NCBI GenBank assembly: GCA_900318395.1
Contig: ONKL01000020.1
Location: 1 to 45,377 of the forward strand
DNA from: an uncultured Prevotella sp.
Lineage (GTDB): Bacteria; Bacteroidota; Bacteroidia; Bacteroidales; Bacteroidaceae
Reading direction: 5' to 3'
DNA length: 45,377 bases
This document shows positions 31,250 to 44,591 of this stretch, one piece after another (position 1 is the first letter of the stretch; each line of letters starts with the position of its first letter). The notes beneath the pieces were generated by a model. That model was given only the letters and a program-made list of their open reading frames with translations. It did not search any database and had not been told where the DNA came from. The position numbers and the translations under genes were made by a program.

Positions 31250-31431
31250 GCTCTACCCCCCAAGTGAACCCCGCAGGCCCCAGCACACACGCCGCCCCCA
31301 GCTCTGCCCCCGAAGTGGAACCCGCAGGCCTCGGGTCTGGCGCCAAAGTACAGTCGCTTGCGACTTTACTTTGGGGCCTGACCCCAGCAACCACCCCAGC
31401 AATCACTTTACTTCGGGGCCTGACCCCAGCA
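31250..31431. repeat. C-rich repeat cluster between convergent genes
   Basis: Two nested repeat families fill the 206-bp gap. A 30-bp unit (GCTCTRCCCCC, then AAGTG, then CCGCAGGCC) occurs at 31250-31279 and 31301-31330. A 27-bp unit (ACTTTACTTYGGGGCCTG, then ACCCCAGCA) occurs at 31363-31389 and 31405-31431, each with a GGGG/CCCC hairpin. The base composition is far more C-rich than the flanking genes. Confidence 0.85.
31343..31374. terminator. Long hairpin, likely bidirectional terminator
   Basis: CCAAAGTA and AGTCGC on the left arm pair with GCGACT and TACTTTGG on the right, a 14-bp stem with one C/T mismatch and a 2-nt centre. It sits between the helicase stop and the hsdR stop. No strong T-run follows, so the terminator call rests on stem and position. 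Confidence 0.55.
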
Positions 31432-31441
31432 CACAGGGGCA

Positions 31442-34400
31442 CTAAACCACCAGCCCGTGGAGTTCTTCCACATAGTTCTTGATACTCAACATGTTAGCCC
31501 CGAAAGCATCACCGATGCCATAGAAGCTGTCGTCTGTAATAATGGTCATAGGCGTAATATCACCATTCTCGCAGACGTAGCCAATAATCTGATTGATGAA
31601 TTCCTCCTGCAGTGAATTAAGCACGTTATCACTCAGGAACTTTGAGAATCTCTCCTTGGCGATCTTCCTGTCTACACCGATGATAGAGCGGATGAAGATA
31701 GCCACCTTGTCGCCACAGAGCAAGTCGCCCTTGTTCACATACTCCTCGTATTCCTCTTTCGAGCCCAGCTCTCTCCAGCAGATATCCTCCAGCTGTTTGA
31801 TATCGTCGACAGTCAGTTTTTCCAATCGGAAAATCTTCTGAAGCACGGCACTGTCGCGATGCTCGTTGAGATAGTCGATGATTCGCGTGCGATAGTCGGT
31901 GAGCATCTCTGGCTTCTCGCTCTCTTTCTCCTCCATCGTGTCAGATATGCTGATGAAGAATTTCTCATGTTTCGAGCCCAGTATGATGTATATAAGTTCC
32001 CTGAGAGCAGTGCGCACATACTCCAGGTTCTCTATCGTCGCCCCCTTCCAGAAATTTGGGTTCATGGCGAGTTCTATAGCGTCTATACGCTCTTTCACGG
32101 CGGGCATTCCCTCCTTGGCTTTCAGCAGCTGGGCTATCCTGATCACCTTGTTCTTGCTGCGCGTGCTCACCACGTCAGGTACCAGTTTCGACAGCTCTAT
32201 GTTCAGCATCAGCGCGTCGAGCATCTTCCCGCCGTTATCATCCTTCTCGCTGACGATGAGCGGTGCAATCTTCTTTTTCAGTTCCAGTGCGTCGATGGCC
32301 GAGATATAGCCCCACGTTTCAGGCCGCTTATATTTCCTCACCGTCTCCCACTCTCTTCTTACAGAGGCGTGCAGCTCATTCAGTTCGTTCAACTGTGCCG
32401 CCAGCTTATCCTTCAGCTGTTCACAGTATTCTCTGGTAAATCCGTGCTGATAGCGCTCATGCTGCAGCACGACGATGATGTCGGCCTCGAGTCCGAAGAT
32501 ACGCTCCGTCACCGACATCGACTCTACGGGCTTCCTTCCCTGCTTGTTGTCCTTGAAGAATTCGAAGTTCTCGCACCAGTCGAAGATGTAGAACTCCTGC
32601 TTGTCGCTGCCGTCGGCAAATATCTCCTTGCAGAGTCTGGTACCGCGTCCCACCATCTGTATATACTTGATGCTGCTGTATACAGGCTTGAAGAATACGA
32701 GGTTCAGGATGTCCGGCACGTCCACGCCAGTGTCGAGCATATCCACCGACACCGCTATCTGGGGCATGTTCTCACGCACCTTGAAGTTGTTGATGATATC
32801 CTGGGAATAGTTCACCGAATAGTCCACCAGCTGGCAGAACTTCGCGTCGAAGCTCGGATACAGCTCATAGAATCTGTCGACGATCATCTGTGCGTGGTCG
32901 TGATTATAGGCGAAGATGATGGTCTTGCCCAGCTTCTCACCGTTCTCCACCTTCAGACCACTTTTCATCAGGTCCTGTAGCACGATGTCTACCGTACCTT
33001 TATTATATATGTAGTCGAAGAGCTCCTTCTTTTCGATGTCTCTCGGTGTCAGCGGCTTCACTTCGCCTCTCTCCAGCGCCTTAGCCTGCTCGTAAGCCCA
33101 TGCAGCGTCGAGCTGAGCCTTTTCCTCTTCTGTCAGCGAGTCATACTCTATCCCGTTGCGCAGTCGCTTGGTAGTGCGCGAGATGGGGTTATAGTCCACC
33201 AGATAGCCGTCTTTGACGGCCTCAGCCATCGAGTACTCGAAGTTAGGCTCTCCGTCGAGGTGGAACAGTTCGAAGGTGCTTCGCTCCACTTCGTCGCGCG
33301 GCGTAGCCGTCAGTCCCACGAGGAAACTGTCAAAGTAGTCAAAGATAGCCGTATACTTCCCGAAGATGCTGCGATGCGCCTCGTCGAGGATGATGAGATC
33401 GAATCTGCCCACAGAGAACTCCTTGTCTTCGGCATCGATATAGTTGATCATCGTCTGATAGGTGCTGAACATCAGTCTGGCGCCCTTTTCTTCATTCTTT
33501 GCACCAGTCAGTATACAGGTGGTGTAGTCAGGCAGCAGTTCTGTGAAGTTCTCGCAAGCCTGGTGAACGAGTGCCGTTCTGTCTGCCAGGAAGAGAATAT
33601 TCTTCACCCATTTGTTACGCAACAGCACCTCGCAGAGCGAGATAGCCACGCGCGTCTTTCCCGTACCCGTCGCCATCACGATCAGTCCGTGGCGGTGCAT
33701 CAGGTTCAGATGGTCGCAGATGCTTCGTATGGCCATCTTCTGATAGTTACGGTTAGTGATTTCGTCGCGTATGGCCAGATCCGTCATCTTGCCCCTACCC
33801 CTTCTCGATATCATCAGTTCGAGGTCGTCGAGCGTATGGAATCCCATCACCTGTCGTGGCGGATATCCCAGACCGTCGATGATCATCGTGCGGAATCCGT
33901 TGGTATAATAGACGACAGGTCGCTGCCCGTATTTCTTTTCCAGACAGTCAGCATATAGCTCTGCCTGATGCTTGCCCTTCTCGGGCTCCACGCTTGCACG
34001 CTTGGCCTCTACCACAGCCAGCGGCTTGCAGTCCTTGCCGTAAAGCACGTAGTCGCAATAGCCCTCCTGCTTGTTGTTTGGCATACCTTCCACATAGATC
34101 TCGATGCCAGCCATGCAGGCCATGGGCGAATTCTCCACCTCCACCACTTTCCATCCAGCCTCTCTCAACATCAGATCGATAAACTCCTTACGCGTCTCTG
34201 CTTCAGAGATGTCCTCAGGCATCTCCGCTTTCACGGGCTTCTTCACGTTCTCTTCCGGCACAGCATCCACAAACGTCTTCGGAGCCTCGGGAACGGTGTC
34301 AGAGGTGGCCACGTGCGGCTGTGGCTTGGCAGGAATAAGATCCTTGCTAAAAGGTGCCAACGTTTCGAGCACACCTAAGCTCAAGAGCACACCACCCACC

Positions 34401-34750
34401 ACGTTGTATGTGTTCAGCAGACAGAAATAGGCTTCTCTCTGTGTGATACCGCCCTGATGCACCGCCACATTTCCCACCTTGCGGATATAGTGAACAGCCA
34501 TCATGAGCTTGTCGTCATCAGCGATAAGCTCCGTAAAGGGCTTTCCTGTAGAAAGCGTATAGAGATTGTCACGTTCGCCTACAGGCTGGTGTTTCAGCTT
34601 ATACACAGCCCTTACGGTCCACTCCAGCGCCTTGCGACAGTTCCAGCCGCAACTGTCATAATCCGATAGCTGCATCTCTTCTGCTGCATGGCAGAAGTTA
34701 TACAAATCACTCAGCGCAGGTATCTGCTTTAGGTAGTCGAAATTCCTCAT
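31442..34750 (-). CDS. hsdR: Type I restriction enzyme R subunit
   Basis: The 1,102-residue subunit provides DNA translocation and cleavage in a type I restriction-modification complex. Order of domains: an N-terminal DUF4145-like helical domain (about 1-130), a linker, the HsdR nuclease domain (about 185-310) with Asp233 and the E248-A-K250 of a PD-(D/E)xK site, two RecA-like helicase domains (about 340-780; Walker A ATGTGKT at 360-366, DEAH at 456-459, QMVGRGTR further on), and a C-terminal EcoEI-type domain. All catalytic motifs are intact. The -7 element TAAATTTG (minus strand, 34758-34765) implies a leader of only a few nucleotides. Unusually, hsdR is almost 8 kb from hsdM, and its first 38 bp plus promoter are repeated at 44359-44439. 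Confidence 0.95.
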   Translation of the reverse strand: MRNFDYLKQIPALSDLYNFCHAAEEMQLSDYDSCGWNCRKALEWTVRAVYKLKHQPVGERDNLYTLSTGKPFTELIADDDKLMMAVHYIRKVGNVAVHQGGITQREAYFCLLNTYNVVGGVLLSLGVLETLAPFSKDLIPAKPQPHVATSDTVPEAPKTFVDAVPEENVKKPVKAEMPEDISEAETRKEFIDLMLREAGWKVVEVENSPMACMAGIEIYVEGMPNNKQEGYCDYVLYGKDCKPLAVVEAKRASVEPEKGKHQAELYADCLEKKYGQRPVVYYTNGFRTMIIDGLGYPPRQVMGFHTLDDLELMISRRGRGKMTDLAIRDEITNRNYQKMAIRSICDHLNLMHRHGLIVMATGTGKTRVAISLCEVLLRNKWVKNILFLADRTALVHQACENFTELLPDYTTCILTGAKNEEKGARLMFSTYQTMINYIDAEDKEFSVGRFDLIILDEAHRSIFGKYTAIFDYFDSFLVGLTATPRDEVERSTFELFHLDGEPNFEYSMAEAVKDGYLVDYNPISRTTKRLRNGIEYDSLTEEEKAQLDAAWAYEQAKALERGEVKPLTPRDIEKKELFDYIYNKGTVDIVLQDLMKSGLKVENGEKLGKTIIFAYNHDHAQMIVDRFYELYPSFDAKFCQLVDYSVNYSQDIINNFKVRENMPQIAVSVDMLDTGVDVPDILNLVFFKPVYSSIKYIQMVGRGTRLCKEIFADGSDKQEFYIFDWCENFEFFKDNKQGRKPVESMSVTERIFGLEADIIVVLQHERYQHGFTREYCEQLKDKLAAQLNELNELHASVRREWETVRKYKRPETWGYISAIDALELKKKIAPLIVSEKDDNGGKMLDALMLNIELSKLVPDVVSTRSKNKVIRIAQLLKAKEGMPAVKERIDAIELAMNPNFWKGATIENLEYVRTALRELIYIILGSKHEKFFISISDTMEEKESEKPEMLTDYRTRIIDYLNEHRDSAVLQKIFRLEKLTVDDIKQLEDICWRELGSKEEYEEYVNKGDLLCGDKVAIFIRSIIGVDRKIAKERFSKFLSDNVLNSLQEEFINQIIGYVCENGDITPMTIITDDSFYGIGDAFGANMLSIKNYVEELHGLVV

Positions 34751-34872: not shown

Positions 34873-34983
34873 TTATTTCAGATTTGCCTCTTTATTCTCA
34901 CGATGCATTGCAAACAAGTTGTAGACGATGGCGATTGCCACCACTATAAAAACTGCAAAATAAAAATAGCTCAGCGATGTCAT
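34873..34983 (-). CDS. Small single-pass membrane protein (36 aa)
   Basis: A 36-codon frame, start ATG at 34981-34983, stop TAA at 34873-34875. The product has one clear transmembrane helix (LSYFYFAVFIVVAIAIVYNLF is the core, shortened here to its ends: LSYFYF...VYNLF) and a charged tail (MHRENKEANLK). It begins 6 bp after the stop of the DUF6722-like gene on the same strand, so the two small membrane proteins are probably made together. Its first 12 codons are repeated at 44555-44591. Unknown function. Confidence 0.6.
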   Translation of the reverse strand: MTSLSYFYFAVFIVVAIAIVYNLFAMHRENKEANLK

Positions 34984-34985
34984 AT
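34949..34985. repeat. Direct repeat DR2, left copy (36-aa gene start)
   Basis: Identical over 37 bp to 44555-44591 and in the same orientation. It covers the start codon and first codons of the small membrane protein. Confidence 0.95.
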
Positions 34986-34989
34986 CCTT

Positions 34990-35268
34990 CTATTCTTTTT
35001 TTGTTCCTCGTTTAACTAATATCATTCCCAATATCAAGAGACTTATCATCACTATTGATCCTGATACAAGATCCAAAGTGTTCTCCATTGAGAGATGGAA
35101 GGCATCTACTAAAACCACTCCCGCAAATGTCAACTTCGACAAATCGTAACAATACTTGCCCAATTCGAAAAGGAAATCATTCTTTTCTTTAGAAATTTGG
35201 ACCGTTGTTGTCTTCGGCGTTAATTGCTGCCTGTTTTGGGCTTTGGCCCGTTCACGTCTCGAACTCAT
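34990..35268 (-). CDS. Small two-helix membrane protein, DUF6722-like
   Basis: A 92-residue protein when started at ATG 35266-35268 (MSSRRERAKAQ). A longer open frame to 35418 is rejected because a complete promoter lies at 35272-35303 inside it. After a basic N-terminus come FELGKYCYDLSKLTFAGVVL and a second hydrophobic stretch IVMISLLILGMILV. The GKY..DLSKL.F.GVV pattern resembles DUF6722 proteins of Bacteroidetes by recall, with moderate confidence. The predicted transcription start coincides with the ATG, implying a leaderless mRNA. It precedes the 36-aa gene and then hsdR. Confidence 0.65.
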   Translation of the reverse strand: MSSRRERAKAQNRQQLTPKTTTVQISKEKNDFLFELGKYCYDLSKLTFAGVVLVDAFHLSMENTLDLVSGSIVMISLLILGMILVKRGTKKE

Positions 35269-35271
35269 CGG

Positions 35272-35303
35272 CAAAAGTACATAAAAGATTCGACACTTGC
35301 AAA
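35272..35303 (-). promoter_or_regulatory. Promoter with -33 and -7 elements, leaderless start predicted
   Basis: On the minus strand, TTTG (plus 35300-35303) and TACTTTTG (plus 35272-35279) are spaced by exactly 20 bp. The start point, about 4 nt past the -7 box, falls at 35268, the A of the ATG. Confidence 0.7.
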
Positions 35304-35490
35304 CTTTTTGCACGATTTTACACGATTTCTTGCTTTTTGCTCTTTCATACGCATTACAATTTAAGTGAATTATTATTGTTAACGCTGCAAAATTAAGCAA
35401 TTTCCGTGAACCTACCAAATTATTTCAAAGAAAAGTTCAAAGTAAAGCAAGAACTTCATTCTTTACAATTCAATAATTTACCTCCAAATT

Positions 35491-36597
35491 TTAATCCCAC
35501 CCTTCATCATCATTCACTTCCATGTATCTTGTCATGCCGTTATCAGGCATATCGTCTTCTGATGCTGGATCAAAGCCTCGCATGTTATCTGGATGTCTGG
35601 AAGGTTCTGTATTGGGAGTAGATGATGGAGTATCTTTAAGATCATACTGATTATCAAAAACCTTCTCTGGCTCTGTGTATTCTATATGTGGCGAATCTGC
35701 TACAGAAAACTTATACCTATTATTATAAAAGTAAATACCCAACGCTATTAACAAAGCCGCTGCGAAAAGTATGCCTCCTATCTTTAACTGCATCCTGGCT
35801 TTTTCTATCGCCTTTCTGTACGATGTTAGCTCATCGTTATTATCGGCAAGTTTGAAAGCTTTGTGTTGAGTAAATAGCTTAAATTCAAATGTGCGGACCT
35901 CTCCTTCTCCATCTTTTATATCGAACCTAACTCTATATAATACATCATTAAGTACCATCTCCTTGGGATTGAACAGATTAGTTAATTTCCTATCCAAACG
36001 AGGATTATAGGGTTGCAACAATCGTGTTGCCGTCTCATGAGATGCTAAAGGTTTGTTATGAGGATAATTTTCACACTCGTTGCCATCAATAAGAACTCTA
36101 CTGAAATTGATAAGGAAAGACTGCCAGTCCACAAACATGTCTTTATCGCTATTATTCGTAATTGAGACTACAAGCCCACTATAATCCTTTGCTATGCCAA
36201 ATTTGATTATGAAATGCTTATTCTCAAAAACATCTTTCCCTTTTTCGCCCTTTCCTATATTCAGCCAATAGAGATTATATCTCTTTTTAGAATCACTAAA
36301 TACCACATCACCAACTGCCTGAGGGAAATCCTTCTTTAGCTGATGATAAGTCTCTATTTTCTTTTGATTTTGCTGGATAATCTGATTTTGCTTCTTCTCT
36401 GCACTCTTTAGAAGCGGCTTGTTAATTCTTATTCTGTCGTAACTTTCAGCGAAAACTATTGCAGCAATGAGGGCAAGGATAGCGGGAATAACCCACCACC
36501 CCAAGATAGTAATTATCATGAGAATAATCAATACACCAAGAATAAACCTACCAATCTCAGTATAAAACAAAAACCACAAATAAGGAAATCCGCTCAT
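35491..36597 (-). CDS. Membrane-anchored protein of unknown function (368 aa)
   Basis: The family is not recognised. Two or three hydrophobic helices occupy about residues 12-50 (ILGVLIILMIITILGWW and AILALIAAIVFA). A basic, Gln-rich coiled stretch (about 60-85) and a beta-rich soluble region (about 90-255) follow. A further helix (IGGILFAAALLIALGIYFY) lies at about 270-290, and the C-terminal tail is acidic and Pro/Ser-rich. Base composition is much more AT-rich than hsdR. It lies between the DUF6722-like gene and the SSL2-type helicase in the accessory part of the R-M locus. It may be an envelope or sensor component, but this is a guess from topology alone. Confidence 0.7.
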   Translation of the reverse strand: MSGFPYLWFLFYTEIGRFILGVLIILMIITILGWWVIPAILALIAAIVFAESYDRIRINKPLLKSAEKKQNQIIQQNQKKIETYHQLKKDFPQAVGDVVFSDSKKRYNLYWLNIGKGEKGKDVFENKHFIIKFGIAKDYSGLVVSITNNSDKDMFVDWQSFLINFSRVLIDGNECENYPHNKPLASHETATRLLQPYNPRLDRKLTNLFNPKEMVLNDVLYRVRFDIKDGEGEVRTFEFKLFTQHKAFKLADNNDELTSYRKAIEKARMQLKIGGILFAAALLIALGIYFYNNRYKFSVADSPHIEYTEPEKVFDNQYDLKDTPSSTPNTEPSRHPDNMRGFDPASEDDMPDNGMTRYMEVNDDEGWD

Positions 36598-36671
36598 ATT
36601 TAATATTACAAATATTTTAACGAATTAAATAATAAATAAATGGGCTATTTTTGATCAAATGCGTAATTAAT

Positions 36672-36770
36672 TTAGGACGATGAGGTTTCTGGCACCATAG
36701 CACCCTGGCATTGTACACCGGTTATGATCTTTTCATCTCGCAGTTTGTACGCCAATCTTGAGATGCCCAT
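36672..36770 (-). pseudogene. Possible remnant of a small helix-turn-helix gene
   Basis: A 32-codon frame that begins MGISRLAYKLRDEK and stops at 36672-36674. The ISRLAYKLR pattern resembles the start of short HTH domains seen in mobile elements, but the rest does not continue as such and a stop codon precedes the ATG. It fills the 190-bp gap upstream of the 368-aa gene. Low confidence. Confidence 0.25.
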
Positions 36771-36787
36771 TTACCGCGAATAACATA

Positions 36788-38689
36788 TCAATCTTTTCTT
36801 TCTGTTCTTTCATATTCATATCCATACGAATCCCTTTCCTTTATTATAATATCATATTTATATAATTCCCTAACACCTTTAAAAGACTCCCACGTAGGAT
36901 CATATTTCAAATAATTAAATCTATTTAATTTGATGGTCATATTATGATTTGAGCCATAATATGTATCAAAGAATATGCGGAGCTGACTAATCGTAAATGG
37001 ATTCAACTCCTGGATATTTTGTTTATTAGCGTTTGAAATTTTTTTCATAAAACGACAATAAATCATTTGAAGTTTTGTCTCACAATAATCGTCCCATCCC
37101 TTATAATCTTCATATTCTATTTCGAAAGCTTTAACAACAGGTTTGAATTCTTTTCCTATTTTCTCCATCATATAATTCATATCATCAGTTTCTGCACTTA
37201 ACAAAAACCGAGGACAAGGATTTAGTAGGTCTTCCTTGTACTCATATTTAAGAAAGAAATGAGGTTCAGTATATGTATCCAAATATTCTTTACAGACACG
37301 TTGGTTTGTTTCAAAAATGCGATTTACAATTTCTTTCAGTCTATTGGAATATTCTTCTACATATTCTCTTTTTGTTTCTTCGACAATATCATTAACACCA
37401 GTTGTTGCTATAAGTTTGACTTCCTCACTTCCTTCAGATAAATCAGGATTCCGATGATTAAACTCAAATGGTTGTGCGTTATCTATCTCATTAGCATAAT
37501 CAATTCCGTATTCCGTAGCTCCCTTGCCGACGAAATGCATACCCCATTTACGTTTTGTTGACGGAAATCCGAAACGATTATAAAGCCCAACGTTATCTAA
37601 AAAAATCACCTTTTCTTTCCCTGGTGCAATACGAAGTCCTCGTCCCACTTGTTGTAAATATAGTCCCAGTGATTTGGTTGGACGAGCAAGTTGGATAAAT
37701 TCCACATCAGGGCAGTCGAATCCTTCTGTGAAAATATTCACATTGCATATAATATCAATCTCTCCTGCCCTAAATCTTTTAACAATGTTTGCACGCACAT
37801 AAGGATCTGTATGGTGGTCAATGCCATATGCTCTGATTCCACACTTCTGGAATTCATAACATAACTGATTATTGTGTGCATTATTAATGGTATATACTAT
37901 GCCCTTTTTCCCCTTAGCGTACTTTAAATATGAGCCAACGATATTAGCGCGAATCTTATCTTTTCCTATGATTTTCCAAAGCCCGCTTTCTTCGTAGTCT
38001 CCATAACTATTAATAGGTATATTGTCCAAGCCTTCGTATAATTCATTATTGGCGGATATGGAATAATAAACATAATTACTGAGCCAGCCTGCTTCAATAA
38101 AGTTTTTTACAGGTGGTGAAACTATCAACTCGTCAAATTCATGTGCTAAGCCATACTCATTCAACCTATAGGGGGTCGCAGTGACACCTAACAACTTACT
38201 TTCAGATAACATTTTCATTACCCTGTGATAGGTGGTACCCCTAACATGATGAGCCTCGTCTATTACAACAACATCAAAATGATAGTCCTTCCATTCGTAA
38301 AGTCTACGATTAAGCGTTTGGATGGAAGCCACGCATACAGGTTTTGCATGATAGCGAGAGTATCTGTCTGCAGGCGTTATAAGTGATGGTTTTATACCAT
38401 ATTCAGTATTACTAAGCTCGCACGTTATTTGATCAACGAGTTCCTTCCTATGAGTTATAATGAGTATATTGACTCTTTCATTATGAACCTTACCGTAGTT
38501 CTGAAAGTCATTGATAATAGAAACAAACAGACGAGTTTTACCAGTTCCTGTAGGCATCTGTAGGAGCACTGTATTGGTAAATTCCCACTTGTTATATATT
38601 TCTGTCTTATTGTGTTGCTGATAGTCTCGCAGACTCTCGTCTTTGTAACTTTTCAGTTCCTCAAGAACGTGGTTGGTTATTTTTTCCAT
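36788..38689 (-). CDS. SSL2-type DEAD/DEAH helicase (superfamily 2)
   Basis: With ATG 38687-38689 the protein has 633 residues; an in-frame TTG at 38713 would add 8. Helicase motifs are complete: LRDYQ at 20-24, Walker A PTGTGKT at 46-52, DEAH at 144-147, GVTATPYR near 165, and QQVGRGLRIA near 335. The type is COG1061 (SSL2/RAD25-like), often found in defence loci. The C-terminal about 250 residues are not recognised and have no evident nuclease motif, so a partner nuclease might be supplied by a neighbour. It is AT-rich and lies between hsdS and hsdR. The repeat element at 38758 marks its 5' side. Confidence 0.88.
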   Translation of the reverse strand: MEKITNHVLEELKSYKDESLRDYQQHNKTEIYNKWEFTNTVLLQMPTGTGKTRLFVSIINDFQNYGKVHNERVNILIITHRKELVDQITCELSNTEYGIKPSLITPADRYSRYHAKPVCVASIQTLNRRLYEWKDYHFDVVVIDEAHHVRGTTYHRVMKMLSESKLLGVTATPYRLNEYGLAHEFDELIVSPPVKNFIEAGWLSNYVYYSISANNELYEGLDNIPINSYGDYEESGLWKIIGKDKIRANIVGSYLKYAKGKKGIVYTINNAHNNQLCYEFQKCGIRAYGIDHHTDPYVRANIVKRFRAGEIDIICNVNIFTEGFDCPDVEFIQLARPTKSLGLYLQQVGRGLRIAPGKEKVIFLDNVGLYNRFGFPSTKRKWGMHFVGKGATEYGIDYANEIDNAQPFEFNHRNPDLSEGSEEVKLIATTGVNDIVEETKREYVEEYSNRLKEIVNRIFETNQRVCKEYLDTYTEPHFFLKYEYKEDLLNPCPRFLLSAETDDMNYMMEKIGKEFKPVVKAFEIEYEDYKGWDDYCETKLQMIYCRFMKKISNANKQNIQELNPFTISQLRIFFDTYYGSNHNMTIKLNRFNYLKYDPTWESFKGVRELYKYDIIIKERDSYGYEYERTERKD

Positions 38690-38757
38690 TTGATAACTTT
38701 TGTATGCATTCAAATTCGTCTTCTATATCTTTTATTTTTTCTGATGGTCTTTCTCGA

Positions 38758-38804
38758 GGGCGCAAAGGTGTCAGGAACCTTTGCGCCCACACCTTTGCGC
38801 CCAC
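38758..38804. repeat. Hairpin repeat element, copy 1
   Basis: GGGCGCAAAGG (38758-38768) pairs with CCTTTGCGCCC (38778-38788), an 11-bp perfect stem. The right arm ACCTTTGCGCCCAC is then repeated at 38791-38804. A related unit lies at 39151-39183. It separates the 61-aa gene from the helicase and could act as a terminator or mRNA end. Confidence 0.8.
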
Positions 38805-38814
38805 TACAAAGAAG

Positions 38815-39000
38815 CTAGTATTTCTCTGGTATATGTTCCTCAAGCCATTTCCGGCTTTCCTGAATACAACGCTTTTCCTCCTCTAGGATTTCTTCGTCAG
38901 TCATCCTATTCTTTTCTGATCCACCTATCCACTCGGCACCCTTAGCCATAGCAATTAATAGCCAAGTTCCTATTACTCCTATGATGAAAGAGAATTCCAT
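38815..39000 (-). CDS. Small membrane protein (61 aa)
   Basis: A 61-residue protein with one N-terminal transmembrane helix (FSFIIGVIGTWLLIAMAKG) and a highly charged soluble tail (MTDEEILEEEKRCIQESRKWLEEHIPEKY, quoted in short: TDEEILEEEKRC). A promoter -7 element TATATTTG (minus strand, 39018-39025) lies 17 bp before the ATG. Family not recognised. Its stop is 11 bp from the hairpin repeat. Confidence 0.6.
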   Translation of the reverse strand: MEFSFIIGVIGTWLLIAMAKGAEWIGGSEKNRMTDEEILEEEKRCIQESRKWLEEHIPEKY

Positions 39001-39017
39001 ATTATATTTCTTTTTTG

Positions 39018-39025
39018 CAAATATA
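39018..39025 (-). promoter_or_regulatory. Promoter -7 element for the 61-aa gene
   Basis: CAAATATA on the plus strand reads TATATTTG on the minus strand and matches TAnnTTTG. The leader would be about 14 nt. Confidence 0.45.
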
Positions 39026-39150
39026 CGAAATTATCGCGAATCTTGCATTTATAGAACCCTTTTTCGATTATAATAATGATTTTGTTACTGGATTTTTGTT
39101 TATTTCGTAAGTTATAGTAGAACAAATTGTCATCTGAAGTTAACAAAAAA

Positions 39151-39183
39151 GGCGCAGAGGTTGCTGACACCTTGGTGCCCACT
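39151..39183. repeat. Hairpin repeat element, copy 2 (diverged)
   Basis: GGCGCAGAGGTTGCTGACAC followed by CTTGGTGCCCACT is a diverged copy of the 38758 element. Its end overlaps the TAG stop (39182-39184) of the EEP-family gene. Confidence 0.65.
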
Positions 39184-39850
39184 ATATTTCTATCATCTGC
39201 ACTACATGATCGCTTAGCTCTCTATCCCACGGAAGTAAACAATATTCCATGATAGGGATATCGGTGAAAGCATAATCGATAAAGAAAGGAGCATTCTCCT
39301 TAAAATGATGATAATATGTTGGGACTGATTCTTGCCCCAATGCATCTCCAGTCTTCTGATGATAAGCACTCACATATCCCAAACCTTTCAGGTAATCGAA
39401 TATGCTTTGTATGGAGAACTTTTTCGTTTCGCCAGATTGTCCTTTGTAGCAATTCATATCTCCGATAATCAAGGAGGAATATGCTTTAAGATAAGTACTA
39501 TATTCCTCCAAAACCTCCATCATGATCTGAGGATATTTTTTAGGTTTGTTTTGCTCTGTTATCGTTGGCCATGAGGCAAGAATCAGAATTCCGTCAACAA
39601 CCAATGGTATGAAATAGTTGTGATTCGGATTGAACCACTTTGGCACATCTGCTTTCAAACCTGTTTTCCAAATGACTCCTAATCCCTTATAATCAATGTC
39701 ACCAGTCCATACCATCTCATATCCATCAGGCAGCTGCACCATAGATGGACAAGCCAGCTCAGGCAAGATAAACACATCCGCATCATATAGCAGAATTTTG
39801 TTAACCTTATCCTGTCTACTCAGATTAATATTATATGATAAAAGTTTCAT
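39182..39850 (-). CDS. Endonuclease/exonuclease/phosphatase (EEP) family protein
   Basis: A 222-residue cytoplasmic protein with the EEP metal-dependent fold. Visible catalytic elements are SYNI (Asn7), PELA (Glu31), GDMN (Asp131, Asn133), DYAFTD near 192-197 and SDH (Ser213-Asp214-His215) near the C-terminus. These agree with the DNase I/exonuclease III class of active site. Whether it cuts DNA, RNA or phospho-compounds is not clear. No signal peptide is present. In a locus with R-M genes and an SSL2 helicase, a nuclease role in defence is plausible but inferred. Confidence 0.82.
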   Translation of the reverse strand: MKLLSYNINLSRQDKVNKILLYDADVFILPELACPSMVQLPDGYEMVWTGDIDYKGLGVIWKTGLKADVPKWFNPNHNYFIPLVVDGILILASWPTITEQNKPKKYPQIMMEVLEEYSTYLKAYSSLIIGDMNCYKGQSGETKKFSIQSIFDYLKGLGYVSAYHQKTGDALGQESVPTYYHHFKENAPFFIDYAFTDIPIMEYCLLPWDRELSDHVVQMIEI

Positions 39851-39863
39851 CGATTATTAAAAA

Positions 39864-39900
39864 GCGATCGGAGAGCCATTGATTTTCCCCAAACGATCAA
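39864..39900. repeat. Repeat DR3, left copy
   Basis: GCGATCGGAGA, then a short variable part, then GATTTTCCCCAAACGATCAA. A closely related unit is at 44516-44557. On the minus strand both read as a short LIVWG peptide near their 5' end, so they may be remnants of the same coding sequence. Confidence 0.75.
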
Positions 39901-39925
39901 TCTGTCCCTGTGATTTTGGTCTATT

Positions 39926-40507
39926 TCACATTTTTCTTTTTCTAATGCCCAATTCCACTTTATACATGCCAACAACATCAGCGGTCTCAATGTTTGATGG
40001 GCTAACCTCCTTCACCTTGACAGGAGCCTCGACACTCACCCATTTGAAGATGGATGTAGGCTTTTTGCGGTTTGACATGCCACCGTAGATTTTGTCTTTG
40101 GTAAGCGGAATACCTGCACCTTGAACATCGTTGACAAGATTGTTATAGAACTCGTCGGCCTCTTTTTTCGTATTAAAGAAGAAGTCATACCATGTCCTGT
40201 TATCATACCAGTCATAGAAACAAATGCCTATAGTAATTCCACGATAAGTGAAATCAAAGGATTCGCCAGCATGTAGACCAGGATACCCATTGATGGTTTC
40301 GCATGTATTAAAAGTATCCATTACTTCCTGCCAGGCTATTTCTTTGGTAGGCATGTAGGCGTTGATGCACGTAAAGGGGAAATAGAGGAGGTCTTGGATG
40401 GTACGCTCCTTTACGTCGATGTGCGTAGGAATGGCTGGCGTTTTCTGGGCCATTGCCAACATGAGCGGCACAAGAAGGAACAATGAAATTAATTTAATTA
40501 TCTTCAT
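39926..40507 (-). CDS. Secreted protein of unknown function (193 aa)
   Basis: A 193-residue protein with a signal peptide (about 1-20, ending AMA) and no lipobox. The mature part is mixed alpha/beta, with a Trp/Tyr-rich segment FYDWYDNRTWYDFFF near residue 118 and a basic C-terminus. The family is not recognised. It begins 8 bp after hsdS and is probably in the same transcript, an odd companion for a cytoplasmic R-M system. Confidence 0.65.
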   Translation of the reverse strand: MKIIKLISLFLLVPLMLAMAQKTPAIPTHIDVKERTIQDLLYFPFTCINAYMPTKEIAWQEVMDTFNTCETINGYPGLHAGESFDFTYRGITIGICFYDWYDNRTWYDFFFNTKKEADEFYNNLVNDVQGAGIPLTKDKIYGGMSNRKKPTSIFKWVSVEAPVKVKEVSPSNIETADVVGMYKVELGIRKRKM

Positions 40508-40515
40508 ATCTGATG

Positions 40516-41697
40516 TCAGTTGAAATAGTAATCCATACGTGAGTTAAACAGCGTTTCCGCTTCTTTGAGAGACTGGCGAACTTTCGCCTTCATCGCTTCT
40601 ATCGCCTCCACCTTTGCTGCAAATTCTTGCTGGAGGGAGAGAGGGGGAAGAGGGATAGAAATTCCTTCAATAACACTACTATTGAGATTCAACATTGTAG
40701 CTCCGCGAGCATTTTCCAACAAATATTGTTTTACACTAGAAGAACTTAATATTTTTAGAGAATATAGGGGATTTATATTAATAGTAAAACGAACGAATAA
40801 GCTTCCAGTTCCACATAGGAATCCATTTTCTTTTTGAGTAACTAAAGCACAACGTCCAATATCACCTCTTCGTCCGAAAACTATATCATGAATTTTAAGC
40901 AGATATGATGACAACTCTTTCTTCTTTTCATCAGAAATCGTAAAATTAGAGTCGGCTTCTATCCTACCATCTTTCATATGAATAGGATTAACTAACGGAG
41001 TTCCACCAGATATGTAGTCATGCTGATGTAAAGCGCTTCCAAATGGACCTATTTTAACGATAGCAATATCCTTTATTTTTTTACAATCCCATTCTTTTTT
41101 ACTGAACATACCATAGAAAATGGATTGGGCGAGTTTATCGAGTTCCTCTAATTGAGCCTTTTGCTTCTCTATCACTCCGCTCAGCAAATCTAATTCTGAA
41201 ACTATTTGTTGCTGTTCTTCTATTGTTGGGATAGGTATTAACAATCTGAGATAAGCTTTGAAGTCAAGATTATGTATTCCTGTCGTCTTTGCTTGCATTT
41301 TGCTTGTTGAACCTCGAAAATACGCTCCTAATAAAGAATAATGTAAAAAATGAGGATCCAATTCACTTTTATTATTTATTCTTAGCGTAGATGTAAAATT
41401 ACTAAATGAGTAATTGCCTTCTTTGATATTAAATAGGACAGGCCTTCCAACTGGTTGTTTTTCACTGCCTCCAGACTTCTCTATAATAATATCTCCATAT
41501 TGCAATTTTCTTGTAGAAAACTGTTTTTCTTCAACATCCAAATATGCAACATTAGTCATATCAAGTTTGCAATCCTTTGTAAAATTAGTATTTCTTACAA
41601 CTGCAATATTGATAAACGGAGGTTTTTTCCCTGTCCATAACCCATTGATAGTGGACGTTACCTCTCCTAACTTCTTATAATCCCAGCCTTCTTTCAT
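40516..41697 (-). CDS. hsdS: Type I restriction-modification specificity subunit
   Basis: A 393-residue DNA-recognition subunit. Two target-recognition domains (about 1-150 and 200-345) are each followed by a conserved helical spacer: LDLLSGVIEKQKAQLEELDK at about 175-194 and FAAKVEAIEAMKAKVRQSL near 350-368. Typical TRD phrases include PIPTIEEQQQIVSEL and PLPPLSLQQEFAAKV. Both halves are intact. No recombinase or partial second hsdS is in the window, so no switching is evident. It sits between the alpha-CTD-like gene and the 193-aa secreted protein, and is AT-rich, as usual for hsdS. Confidence 0.93.
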   Translation of the reverse strand: MKEGWDYKKLGEVTSTINGLWTGKKPPFINIAVVRNTNFTKDCKLDMTNVAYLDVEEKQFSTRKLQYGDIIIEKSGGSEKQPVGRPVLFNIKEGNYSFSNFTSTLRINNKSELDPHFLHYSLLGAYFRGSTSKMQAKTTGIHNLDFKAYLRLLIPIPTIEEQQQIVSELDLLSGVIEKQKAQLEELDKLAQSIFYGMFSKKEWDCKKIKDIAIVKIGPFGSALHQHDYISGGTPLVNPIHMKDGRIEADSNFTISDEKKKELSSYLLKIHDIVFGRRGDIGRCALVTQKENGFLCGTGSLFVRFTININPLYSLKILSSSSVKQYLLENARGATMLNLNSSVIEGISIPLPPLSLQQEFAAKVEAIEAMKAKVRQSLKEAETLFNSRMDYYFN

Positions 41698-41766
41698 TTA
41701 TTTCAATTGTATAAATCTTCATAGTGATAGGCTATAGTTTTACTTTTTGCCTTGTTTATCAAATGA

Positions 41767-42153
41767 CTATTTACCTATAACTTCTTTCACGATGCTCTCG
41801 ACATCCATACCCATCGTTAGGTTATGTTCTTTGAGGATACTCTTTAATTCATATACGCTTTTCTTGCCGAAATTTGGAAAAACCAATATATCTAAGAGAT
41901 CATATTGTACAAGATCGCCAAGTGTATAGATTCTTGCCTTTAATAATACATTCTTAGTACGAGCACTAAATGGCAGATCTTTGATTTCCAACAGCAAAGT
42001 TCTTATTACCTCATTTTCTTCAGCATATCTTTCTAAATGGCAAAAAGAGCGATAATACTCAAAGTCCTGATAGCCTTTCCCTAATTTGCGACGGAGCAGA
42101 GAATTTTCTGCTTGCAATATGAGGATTTCATTCCAAAGATCTTTTTCATCCAT
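41767..42153 (-). CDS. Free-standing RNA polymerase alpha-CTD-like protein
   Basis: A 128-residue protein when started at ATG 42151-42153 (MDEKDLWNEI). The N-terminal half (about 1-55) is a charged helical or coiled-coil region. The C-terminal half (about 59-116) resembles the helix-hairpin-helix C-terminal domain of RNA polymerase alpha: LPFSARTKNVL, then YTLGDLVQY, then FPNFGKKSVYELKSIL. The expected order of HhH elements and the Leu/Gly/Lys pattern is present. There is no alpha N-terminal domain, and length is far below the alpha subunit. It could be a transcription factor for the R-M genes that imitates alpha-CTD, or a DNA-binding HhH protein. It lies between hsdS and the 120-aa gene. Confidence 0.75.
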   Translation of the reverse strand: MDEKDLWNEILILQAENSLLRRKLGKGYQDFEYYRSFCHLERYAEENEVIRTLLLEIKDLPFSARTKNVLLKARIYTLGDLVQYDLLDILVFPNFGKKSVYELKSILKEHNLTMGMDVESIVKEVIGK

Positions 42154-42214: not shown

Positions 42215-42577
42215 TTACTTCATTATCGCAATCTCCGCATCGATGACATACATATCGCCATCTTTGTCCTTCATGTTGACCTTATAGATAATATCATTTG
42301 ATACATAGGTGTCATTCTCGTTGCCGCTGGGTCCTGGGATTCCCAAATCAAAGATATCGTCCATGGGAATCCAAATTCCAGCAGACTTGGCATATTGCTC
42401 TGCTGCACGTTGCTCTATTTCGAAGCGGCCTCCATCGCTTTTGCCGTCTCGAGGTTCCGCCTCATGTAATCGGCAAAGTCTTTGGAGTTCATCGGAGACT
42501 TCTTGGATTCTACGATTTTCTTCATCGTACGCTCCATCGCCTCTTTGTGAAACTGATTCAAGTATGTCATCTTTCAT
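42215..42577 (-). CDS. Small unidentified protein, possibly truncated
   Basis: A 120-residue protein. The N-terminal half is charged and helical (EENRRIQEVSDELQRLCRLHE), and the middle holds QRAAEQYAKSAGIWIPMDDIF, which I recall from large polyvalent proteins of Bacteroidetes mobile elements, where the sequence continues well beyond. Here it ends shortly after NDTYVSNDIIYKVNM. So it is either a stand-alone small gene or a truncated piece. It is located between hsdM and the alpha-CTD-like gene on the same strand. Both readings are uncertain. Confidence 0.5.
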   Translation of the reverse strand: MKDDILESVSQRGDGAYDEENRRIQEVSDELQRLCRLHEAEPRDGKSDGGRFEIEQRAAEQYAKSAGIWIPMDDIFDLGIPGPSGNENDTYVSNDIIYKVNMKDKDGDMYVIDAEIAIMK

Positions 42578-42636: not shown

Positions 42637-44148
42637 CTATTTCATGAATTTCGTCTTGAACTCATTCATGGCCTCGGTGATCTCATTCTGAAGCTGCTCG
42701 AAGCGGCCTAAGATGACCTCGGGGGCATCGTAGACCACCTTTTCACGCTCTACTTCCTTGTATTTATTGATGGCCAGCGAATAGTCGTTGTCACGAATCT
42801 CCTGGGCAGGCACGAAGAAGCTCTGATCCTTACGGCTGCGCTCTGCCTCGCCATCGAGGTTGTGGAATCGCTCAATGATGTCAGGGATATCATTGTCCTG
42901 TATCTCGTTGCGCTTGTCGTCGAGCGAGAATCCATCGGCCTTCATGTCGTAGAACCACACACGATCCGTGCTTTGGGCGTTAGTCTTGGTGAAGACGATG
43001 ATGGCGGTAGAGACGCCTGCATAGGGCTTGAACACGCCTGAGGGCATGCTGATGATGGCCTGCAGGTGCTGATGGTCGACGAGCTCCTTGCGCAGCGCAA
43101 GGTGGGCGGTAGAGGTGCCGAAGAGCACACCGTCAGGGACAATGCTGGCACAGCGACCTCCTAACTCCAGCATGCGGATAAAGAGGCTCATAAAGAGCAG
43201 CTCCGTCTTCTTAGTGCGCGTGAGCGTCAGCAGTGAGTCGTTCACCACCTCATAGTCGAGCGTGCCCGAGAAGGGCGGATTAGCCATGATCAGCGAGTAA
43301 TAGCCCTCGCAGGTGTTCTGATTCGAGAGACTGTCCTGCGCACGGACATCCGGATCGTCGACACCATTCAGCATGAGATTCATAGAGCCGATGCGCAGCA
43401 TCTTGGGGTCGGTATCGAAGCCGCTGAACATCTTCGTGCGGAAGTGCTGGGAGTTCTGCTTCTTCAGGAGTTCCTGCTGATAATGCTCCTTGATATACTG
43501 CGCACAGGTCACATCGAAGCCTGCCGTGCCCATGGCGGGGTCGCAGATGCGATCGTCGAGTCGCGGCTGCATCAGCTCTACCATCATGCGGATGATATGG
43601 CGGGGAGAGCGGAACTGGCCATTGGTGCCCGAGGCGGCCATCTTGCCCAGCACATACTCGTAGACGTCGCCCATCGTGTCGCGATCGTTCATATCCAGCT
43701 CGTTGATGCCCTCTACCACCTTCACTAGCGTGCGTGGCTGCTGGATGAGGAACACGGCATCGTTCATAAAGCGGCTATAGGCAGAGGTCTTGGCATCGTT
43801 GAGGTGCTTGATGAAGGTGAACACATCGAAGCGCACGGTGTTGAACATCTCTTCAGGGATGAAGTGACGGAACTCGCTCCAACGCAGGTTCTTATAGGGT
43901 ACATCTTTGTCAGTATCGGGGTTATGCCAGAGACCCTTCTTGAACACGGCATCGGGCAGCTCCACATCGCCCATGCCCATCTTCACGGCGATAGCTTCCT
44001 TATCCAACTGAGCATCGTCGAGCATCTTCATAAAAAAGAGGTAGGTCATCTGCTCCAGCACATCGATAGAGTTAGTGATACCGCCCGTCCAGAAACTCAT
44101 CCAGATAGCGTCTACCTGACTCTTGATCTTACCTGTTATTCCACTCAT
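42637..44148 (-). CDS. hsdM: Type I restriction-modification DNA methyltransferase subunit
   Basis: A 503-residue N6-adenine methyltransferase that modifies the HsdS target and forms the core of the restriction complex. Domains: N-terminal HsdM_N helical domain (about 10-150), then the catalytic domain with SAM-binding DPAMGTAGF at 203-211 and NPPF at 290-293, and a C-terminal helical region for HsdS contact. Length is normal. Composition is host-like, unlike the neighbouring AT-rich genes. A complete promoter (-33 TTTG and -7 TAATTTTG) lies just upstream. Confidence 0.95.
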   Translation of the reverse strand: MSGITGKIKSQVDAIWMSFWTGGITNSIDVLEQMTYLFFMKMLDDAQLDKEAIAVKMGMGDVELPDAVFKKGLWHNPDTDKDVPYKNLRWSEFRHFIPEEMFNTVRFDVFTFIKHLNDAKTSAYSRFMNDAVFLIQQPRTLVKVVEGINELDMNDRDTMGDVYEYVLGKMAASGTNGQFRSPRHIIRMMVELMQPRLDDRICDPAMGTAGFDVTCAQYIKEHYQQELLKKQNSQHFRTKMFSGFDTDPKMLRIGSMNLMLNGVDDPDVRAQDSLSNQNTCEGYYSLIMANPPFSGTLDYEVVNDSLLTLTRTKKTELLFMSLFIRMLELGGRCASIVPDGVLFGTSTAHLALRKELVDHQHLQAIISMPSGVFKPYAGVSTAIIVFTKTNAQSTDRVWFYDMKADGFSLDDKRNEIQDNDIPDIIERFHNLDGEAERSRKDQSFFVPAQEIRDNDYSLAINKYKEVEREKVVYDAPEVILGRFEQLQNEITEAMNEFKTKFMK

Positions 44149-44336: not shown

Positions 44337-44396
44337 TTATTTGCGGAAAGTTTTAAATAGCGCAGTTATCTGCTTTAGGTAGTCGAAATTCCTCAT
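44337..44396 (-). pseudogene. Truncated hsdR 5' end
   Basis: ATG at 44394-44396 starts MRNFDYLKQI, identical to the hsdR N-terminus, then departs (TALFKTFRK) and stops at 44337-44339. Together with its promoter region it matches 34713-34793 at 79 of 81 positions. It is a relic of a second or earlier hsdR copy. Confidence 0.85.
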
Positions 44397-44439
44397 GACG
44401 TGGCAAATTTACGAAATAATCGTCCATTCCACGTAAACT
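44359..44439. repeat. Direct repeat DR1, right copy
   Basis: Matches 34713-34793 (hsdR start and promoter) at 79 of 81 positions, same orientation, 9,646 bp away. The two copies bound hsdM, hsdS and all accessory genes. Confidence 0.95.
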
Positions 44440-44463
44440 AAAAAAGCCCTGTAACTGGAGGGC
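44440..44463 (-). terminator. Minus-strand terminator upstream of the hsdR relic
   Basis: GCCCT (44446-44450) and AGGGC (44459-44463) form a short stem; on the minus strand it is followed by a run of six T. It would stop minus-strand transcripts entering from the right. Confidence 0.6.
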
Positions 44464-44471
44464 AACTTGTA

Positions 44472-44515
44472 GATCTGACATGTGGGAAAAATTTCCCAGA
44501 TGCTGTTGTCAGATC
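44472..44515. repeat. Nested inverted repeats
   Basis: GATCTGAC (44472-44479) and GTCAGATC (44508-44515) enclose TGGGAAAAATTTCCCA (44483-44498), itself an inverted repeat. A palindrome GATCGCGATC follows at 44512-44521. These may be a protein-binding site or an element end. Confidence 0.75.
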
Positions 44516-44591
44516 GCGATCGGAGACACAGGCCTTTGATTTCCCCAAACGATCAAAACTGCAAAATAAAAATAGCTCAGCGATGTCATAT
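44516..44591. repeat. Composite of copied island pieces (DR3 and DR2 right copies)
   Basis: 44516-44557 is related to 39864-39900, and 44555-44591 is identical to 34949-34985 (start of the 36-aa gene). The two pieces are joined directly here, so the minus-strand frame starting with the 36-aa gene runs into the LIVWG sequence. Confidence 0.85.

Follow-up and report, generated by a model that had tools for sequence, protein, structure and literature searches.

Accessory genes inside type I restriction-modification (RM) loci have been described before. In EcoprrI, the gene prrC, encoding a tRNA anticodon nuclease, is carried as cargo within hsdMSR and its association with the hsd genes is conserved; other toxin genes also occur inside hsd loci (PMC3506569, PMC12707154, from the excerpts available). 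The type I RM region of Campylobacter jejuni M1 contains rloA and rloB, which the locus-tag order in the accessible part of PMC2928727 places between hsdR and hsdS. According to extracts of PMC10121019, known defence systems (Druantia and type IV RM) are housed in hotspot #36 of E. coli, a type I RM locus. PMC9503650 predicts conflict clusters centred on ADP-ribosylglycohydrolases, with Nudix or WYL regulators, vWA chaperones and, as a usual member, a phosphatase; the lack of a coupled sirtuin was part of their definition. Here, we investigated a type I RM locus of an uncultured Prevotella sp. with a row of accessory genes among its hsd genes, using a window of 45,377 nt, which is one whole contig (ONKL01000020.1) of a draft genome (GCA_900318395.1). 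We consider it probable that this apparently intact RM locus, whose HsdM, HsdS and HsdR would carry out ordinary sequence-specific restriction, served as a landing site, and that the cargo genes between hsdM and hsdR arrived separately, several keeping their own promoters and each acting alone rather than as part of one machine.

All genes of the locus are encoded on the minus strand and run hsdM, sm120, alpha-CTD gene, hsdS, a 193-aa exported-type protein (sec193), a 222-aa EEP-like enzyme, a 61-aa protein, a 641-aa RadD-like helicase, a 368-aa membrane protein with an acidic tail, DUF6722, a 36-aa peptide and hsdR (Table 1). Genes were called with a script that takes the longest open reading frame (ORF), so small or overlapping genes may be missed. 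The original prediction had taken positions 34873..42153 as a probably acquired module between hsdS and hsdR and as a candidate composite defence system. The genes it observed are real, and they do share one strand and are more AT-rich than hsdM and hsdR: the block genes have a GC content of 0.34–0.44 (0.28–0.50 at the third codon position, the 36-aa peptide left out), against 0.543 (0.754) for hsdM and 0.519 (0.693) for hsdR. The placement held in part. The EEP-like, helicase and membrane protein genes do lie between hsdS and hsdR, but the alpha-CTD gene sits between hsdM and hsdS, as does the truncated kinase gene sm120, and the span takes in hsdS itself. Furthermore, hsdS is as AT-rich as the cargo (GC 0.352); therefore, an insertion between hsdS and hsdR does not by itself account for the block.

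By its motifs, the RM locus is apparently intact, with S-adenosylmethionine and NPPF motifs in hsdM, target-recognition domains in hsdS, and helicase and PD-(D/E)xK motifs in hsdR. The sequence TAnnTTTG, which we take to be the Bacteroidetes -7 promoter element, was found no more than 75 nt upstream of 5 of 11 gene starts (hsdM, sm120, the 61-aa gene, DUF6722 and hsdR). By comparison, 2000 shuffles averaged 0.37 such starts and random positions 0.56, no control reached five, and the opposite strand gave one. This fits several transcription units within the locus.

The distribution of the cargo carries the proposed reading. With a threshold of E 1e-60, 11 of 199 other genomes of the genus (named relatives are Prevotella in the wide sense) have an hsdR of the window's family. 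We compared ten loci with all three hsd genes in view (L056–L065, of which L062 and L063 look alike; L066 is incomplete and was left out), dropping hsdR matches below 35% and hsdM matches below 33% identity. None of the ten held the window's helicase, EEP-like or tail gene, the helicase matching only the general helicase core of hsdR. Other genes occupy the gap between hsdM and hsdS (M-S) or between hsdS and hsdR (S-R) in seven of them. By Pfam, these include YhcG/DUF1016 nucleases in L058 and L062 (L063 has the same gene, judging by its start) and Fic in L059, with 23S-IVP matches below the Pfam cut-off in L057 and L058; a Fic gene was also found in L158. The gap genes of L061 and L065 had no Pfam match and only look like REP-type transposases. 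Since seven of ten relatives carry other genes there, the M-S and S-R gaps appear to be exchangeable slots.

A partial relative was found in another genome (L198, from G088). Its sm120, the last part of its hsdS and its sec193 match the window at 91–97% DNA identity, matches starting inside hsdM not being counted, and homology stops 12 nt past sec193. This 7.7-kb stretch gave no match to hsdM or the EEP-like gene, and none to the helicase at 30% identity or more. The protein scan of the named loci excluded hsdR and helicase matches below 30%, all tail matches and, from L198 onward, sec193. This boundary, the AT-rich composition and the patchy distribution bear out the proposal that the genes were probably acquired. 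A phage origin was considered and rejected: scans of viral contigs for close relatives confirmed none for the tail, the helicase, its C-terminal domain or the EEP-like protein, and the last had no match in phages.

Cargo in an hsd locus could instead guard the RM enzyme as PrrC does, with the EEP-like protein or the helicase held inactive by the Hsd complex and firing when a phage blocks restriction. The precedent of prrC inside hsdMSR (PMC3506569, PMC12707154, as excerpted) speaks for such an arrangement. However, the cargo is not conserved with the RM genes here, as the helicase and the EEP-like gene are absent from all ten relatives of the RM locus, and in the ten EEP loci compared, the thresholds applied left no match to hsd genes of the window. 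Pfam and PADLOC found no anticodon-nuclease or other known toxin domain in the scanned cargo (for the 61-aa protein, Pfam alone was used; the 36-aa peptide was outside both scans), the best match being that of the 193-aa protein to a PADLOC candidate family at E 0.023. A guardian role thus seems quite unlikely to us.

The central proposal of the original prediction was that RM genes, helicase, EEP-like enzyme and membrane proteins act together as one composite defence system. Their adjacency on one strand and shared AT-richness favor it, as does the co-location of these families in tail loci above random expectation (below). However, we found the set in no second locus. The EEP-like gene occurs apart from it, the helicase occurs alone (G140) and a tail-bearing membrane protein occurs alone (L162), which is the independent occurrence that the prediction had named as refuting it. 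None of the ten hsd relatives holds any of them; the several promoter-like sites also speak against a single unit. The neighbourhood survey it had called for, on co-occurrence of helicase, EEP protein and 368-aa membrane protein, recovered the full set nowhere else, while it did find the helicase adjacent to a tail-bearing membrane protein in one further locus (L145). Because the parts occur apart, we reject a single composite system as the leading explanation and consider it highly improbable. Weaker links appear to persist: the neighbours in L145, EEP-like genes that often stand by restriction or ADP-ribose genes, and islands shared above random expectation.

Some of these links weigh against separately acting cargo. 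Five tail loci also hold an EEP, helicase or alpha-CTD gene or this RM family, against ~0.054 expected at random in 0.92 Mb (P ~4e-9, or 8e-7 with densities three times higher), so the distribution of the parts is not random; the four families were picked with the matches already in view, the densities come from draft genomes with a mean genome size (2.9 Mb) that is an estimate, and the alpha-CTD count of 8 was hand-picked (non-rpoA frames), with weaker or cut matches (G106, G125, G034 and G018) left out. One further locus (L158), about as distant as the ten, carries an RM relative (hsdM 59%, hsdR 45% identity) followed by a tail lipoprotein after hsdR, with no helicase or EEP match, so that some functional coupling is possible. 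All cargo in the window lies on one strand, and the absence of cargo from the relatives was seen in draft genomes, many of them incomplete, over stretches of 4 to 20 kb. Other meetings of the parts include a row in L121, where a pair of alpha-CTD proteins stands with genes that read as hsdS-like, an hsdR of a different type (assigned from Pfam on a same-length protein of L078) and a tail lipoprotein; L160, where a tail occurs with an alpha-CTD protein and a 213-aa relative of sm120; and L163, with EEP and tail together. Searching the other way, we saw a tail in none of the 40 loci retrieved for EEP (9), the helicase core (20) or hsd (11), which would hardly be expected at the tail's density anyway. 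Given families chosen afterwards and draft-genome densities, the co-location shows shared islands, not a system.

Within the cargo, the RadD-like helicase and the membrane protein directly downstream of it are the best candidates for a functional sub-unit. Helicase cores like this one are common, with matches in at least 120 genomes of the genus, and among the matches listed the strong ones to other genomes end by about residue 471. Against the RadD equivalog model, the helicase scored 142 bits with a cut-off of 720, and the match stops at residue 377. Its C-terminal domain (~400–641) has no assigned family, and residues from ~447 onward had no PDB match at E ≤ 10. This domain was found in 1 of 397 other genomes of the genus, in none of 250 other genomes of the family draw, and weakly in 1 of 148 others of the order draw (G708, E 3.4e-7), where the surroundings are uninformative. 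Among the best 25 of 29 PADLOC families, helicase-based defence systems gave helicase-core matches only (mREase_IV, PbeA and others). A recurring row in L094, L096, L097 and L098 consists, by reading, of a Dam-like methyltransferase, 148-aa and ~765-aa proteins, a RadD-like helicase (43–44% identity to the window's) and a second methyltransferase.

In another species, L145 has a helicase that is 50% identical over residues 9–629, C-terminal domain included. Only 6 nt separate it from a tail-bearing membrane protein downstream, with order and strand as in the window. A DUF2130 gene lies upstream of this pair and a Schlafen AlbA_2 gene downstream. Helicase and tail-bearing membrane protein are thus a candidate for genes kept as a pair, and could form an embedded two-gene defence unit, the helicase sensing phage DNA intermediates and its membrane partner serving as effector or anchor. 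The conserved arrangement, the genes that flank it in L145 and the rarity of the shared domain argue for this. However, the third helicase relative (G140) has no tail gene, the related membrane protein of L162 has no helicase, there are two instances only, the gap in the window is 190 nt, and outside the tail the membrane proteins of the window and L145 are not visibly alike. We regard such a unit as a genuine possibility, while leaning against it. It would work beside the RM enzyme and not with it, and so is compatible with separately acquired cargo. The target of the helicase would be DNA that is foreign or abnormal, and the acidic tail of the membrane protein would be extracytoplasmic.

The membrane protein was predicted to be a multi-helix protein; we find two strong hydrophobic segments (Table 1), the first possibly a hairpin. 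It had no PADLOC match at E ≤ 0.1. Only its C-terminal tail has matches in other genomes of the genus (16 of 199). This acidic peptide of ~32–34 residues is found mostly at the end of small lipoproteins. Alignment of relatives (A2) found it in 71 named Bacteroidales loci. Most carry the title Prevotella or Prevotellaceae, some Bacteroidaceae or Muribaculaceae, and many come from ruminants; these loci were fetched with the tail itself and give no prevalence, for which 16 of 199 is the figure. A tail ORF was obtained in 69 of the 71 (not L170 or L181), and the tail is the end of the protein in 71 of 72 ORFs. By our own rule, 55 of 60 tail ORFs of at least 85 residues have a lipobox-like start (L113 was apparently missed; 12 shorter ones were not judged). 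Three tail lipoproteins had no credible Pfam match, and a full-text literature search with three tail strings found no paper.

Across 16 tails, identity averages 89% in amino acids and 82% in nucleotides, and the codons differ at 39% of the residues they have in common; these averages include L090, where the frame is broken at the tail start, and are slightly low for that reason. These figures speak for purifying selection on the peptide and against recent copying. In the lipoproteins, an extracytoplasmic position of the tail is expected, and the hydrophobic segment at 273–291 ahead of it allows the same side in the window's protein. The L162 membrane protein is related to the window's in its N-terminal helices (alignment score 85, with none of 500 shuffles above 55) and also has a second helix and the tail; it lacks the middle domain and its neighbours read as ordinary. 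Tentatively, a tail of the DNMRGFDPASEDDMDDNGMSRYMENNDEEGWD type could be an extracytoplasmic address or docking tag on many accessory lipoproteins and membrane proteins of Bacteroidales, which here and in L145 would couple a RadD-like helicase, with its new C-terminal domain, to the envelope in a new two-gene defence travelling in restriction loci and other islands, but we think this rather unlikely as a whole.

Tail proteins as specific partners of restriction were considered and rejected, as restriction and defence matches were found both among nearest neighbours of tail genes (120 proteins) and more than 4.5 kb away on those contigs (92 proteins). The commonest PADLOC families, from the best 25 of 121 and 151 families, reached 4 of 120 near the tail (PDC-S05, PDC-S23) and 3 of 92 far from it (PbeA), a coarse comparison from which we claim no enrichment and which leaves out broken or partial tails (L175, L178–L181). 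Pfam, run on the near set only, gave ResIII in 6 and GmrSD_N in 3 of the 120 proteins.

The EEP-like protein had been assigned to the EEP family by the original prediction, and the label fits in part. The residues N7, E31, GDxN (130–133), D192 and SDH (213–215), presumably the EEP catalytic residues, are invariant in 10 sequences. Additionally, seven plasmid genes (Cytobacillus, Klebsiella, Paenarthrobacter) annotated as endonuclease/exonuclease/phosphatase family proteins share 24.6–30.3% identity with it; the surroundings of three of them showed no common partner. However, the protein had no Pfam match at E ≤ 1 and matched the xth model at E 0.0049 only. It had no PADLOC match at E ≤ 0.1, and its profile found in the PDB a weak best match at E 0.57 (chain 4b8c_D). 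It would be a stray member of a family often beside modification-dependent restriction or ADP-ribose-processing genes, and is probably a phosphodiesterase or phosphatase.

Relatives of this protein were found in 10 of 199 other genomes of the genus, one of them a fragment. We compared ten neighbourhoods, comprising nine of these matches from outside the window's own genome (L067–L075) and L163 from the named set. A conflict-type neighbour is present in 7 of the 10. An McrB-like AAA_5 protein adjoins EEP in L067, L070 and L071; L067 also has an McrBC-family gene (PF10117, E 3.2e-54), which a 434-aa gene of L070 resembles, while none was called in L071. GmrSD and Sir2 are present in L069, an ADP-ribosylglycohydrolase with a vWA protein in L068, and a WYL regulator in L075, where a gene looking like a glycohydrolase had no Pfam match. 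The remaining 3 have no such neighbour, and the surroundings, by reading, are ordinary-looking in L073 and L074 and ambiguous in L072. A one-strand cluster at L163:1010-5024 comprises EEP, ADP-ribosylglycohydrolase, Sir2, a 358-aa protein, Nudix and a tail lipoprotein, then (by reading) an acetyltransferase-like gene, and is a candidate ADP-ribose conflict cluster of Prevotella. We infer that EEP may fill the phosphatase role in such clusters (L163, L068). In the window, EEP stands without ADP-ribose partners.

The locus bears marks of rearrangement. The two copies of the direct repeat in Table 1 bracket the block of hsdM, hsdS and cargo, and the hsdR-start copy upstream of hsdM is a relic, which indicates that recombination reshaped the locus. 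A short stretch beginning GATCGTTTGGGG occurs twice, upstream of EEP (39860-39905) and upstream of hsdM (44500-44551), and is possibly a recombination site. A REP-like palindrome (inverted repeat I3; 38748-38812) separates the 61-aa gene from the helicase, and a 27-nt repeat follows hsdR (31363-31431). Such a recombination-prone locus might be mostly a gene graveyard of hitchhiking and decay, with selection on the RM genes only. The truncated kinase, the hsdR relic and the hsdS remnant in L198 would be expected then; the sm120 relative in L198 is full length (212 aa; Kinase-PolyVal E 9.9e-25, profile 4–156 of 160). Decay throughout is nevertheless unlikely, as neither the helicase nor EEP is truncated or has lost its motifs, and selection on the tail peptide is strong in its family.

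The other cargo genes have distributions of their own. Relatives of the 193-aa protein were found in 18 of 199 other genomes of the genus at 45–96% identity, three with a stop inside the match; the 96% is in another species, and others have 45–89% (L183 and L198 among the loci). Near-identity across species is a sign of recent exchange. A PDB search gave no match. The alpha-CTD protein has an N-terminal part that looks like a coiled coil. As an RM-specific partner it was rejected: relatives adjoin type I RM genes in L121, but 8 further loci had no hsd match. Proteins with this domain other than RpoA occur in several contexts (L121, L160, L224, L229), adjoining a ~257-aa gene of the same look in L160 and L224 and, in L229, as a domain within a 1196-aa protein.

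Table 1. Genes and repeats of the type I RM locus, with positions in the window
Feature	Position	Strand	Evidence and remarks
hsdR, type I restriction subunit	31442..34750	-	PADLOC REase_I E 2.1e-148; EcoEI_R_C 7.2e-12; GTGKT 362, DEAH 456, EAK motif near 245
Direct repeat, hsdR copy: 36-aa peptide start, hsdR promoter-like site, first hsdR codons	34713..34985	-	repeat families D1 (87 nt), D2 (43 nt), 95%
36-aa single-helix peptide upstream of hsdR	34873..34983	-	beginning repeated upstream of hsdM
DUF6722 small membrane protein, 92 aa from ATG at 35268	34990..35268	-	DUF6722 E 2.6e-9; promoter-like site
368-aa membrane protein	35491..36597	-	hydrophobic segments 19-37, 273-291; acidic tail, ~last 34 residues (~35491-35595)
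RadD/ResIII-type SF2 helicase, 641 aa from TTG (or ATG at 38689)	36788..38713	-	ResIII E 9.4e-29; RadD model 1.5e-41; GTGKT 56, DEAH 152, QQVGRGL 354
61-aa small membrane protein	38815..39000	-	own promoter-like site
EEP-like 222-aa enzyme, predicted phosphodiesterase, phosphatase or nuclease	39182..39850	-	invariant catalytic-type residues; annotated relatives
193-aa protein (sec193), probably exported	39926..40507	-	N-terminal hydrophobic segment 3-21
hsdS, two specificity stretches	40516..41697	-	Methylase_S E 8.3e-21, 2 stretches
128-aa protein with RNA polymerase alpha-CTD domain	41767..42153	-	RNA_pol_A_CTD E 1e-14; relatives in L121, L160
sm120, truncated polyvalent-protein kinase	42215..42577	-	Kinase-PolyVal E 0.013; 51-aa ORF overlaps in another frame
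hsdM, type I methyltransferase	42637..44148	-	PADLOC MTase_I E 1.8e-169; DPAMGTAGF at 203, NPPF at 290
Direct repeat, copy upstream of hsdM: relic of hsdR start	44359..44591	-	95% over 87 + 43 nt

The M-S and S-R gaps of this Prevotella RM family, as exchangeable cargo slots, caution against reading such neighbourhoods as single systems. Selection appears to have kept the tail almost unchanged on diverged lipoproteins, and a rare helicase domain stands twice beside a tail-bearing membrane protein; both look new. The tail genes and the helicase pair each make a short list whose members can be tested singly.

Titles, abstract openings and open papers in the literature searched held no description of this gene set or of Bacteroidales hsd cargo, and the nearest comparisons are with the systems introduced above. 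RadD/YejH, a DNA repair helicase (PDB 6jde), is alike in the SF2 core (residues 28–377, phmmer E 4.8e-24), but the likeness ends there and the model score is far below the equivalog cut-off. The ADP-ribosylglycohydrolase clusters of PMC9503650 resemble the EEP surroundings in L163 and L068, where relatives adjoin such genes (with a tail gene in L163), and in L075, where WYL stands beside EEP; unlike them, the window has no ADP-ribose genes and L163 has Sir2, and the term EEP is absent from the main text of that paper. Like E. coli hotspot #36 in the extracts of PMC10121019, the window has an RM locus as landing site, although its cargo consists of unclassified genes whereas known systems are found there. 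As with prrC in the excerpted accounts, cargo lies inside hsdMSR, but the window's helicase and EEP are not conserved with the hsd genes. The rloA and rloB genes of C. jejuni, compared by description only from part of the source, are likewise accessory genes of undescribed function inside a type I RM locus; they are two genes whose family is not stated there, whereas the window has more genes and its RM family carries varied cargo. In general, the locus is the long-known prrC/rlo pattern of cargo in hsd loci, with a new cargo set.

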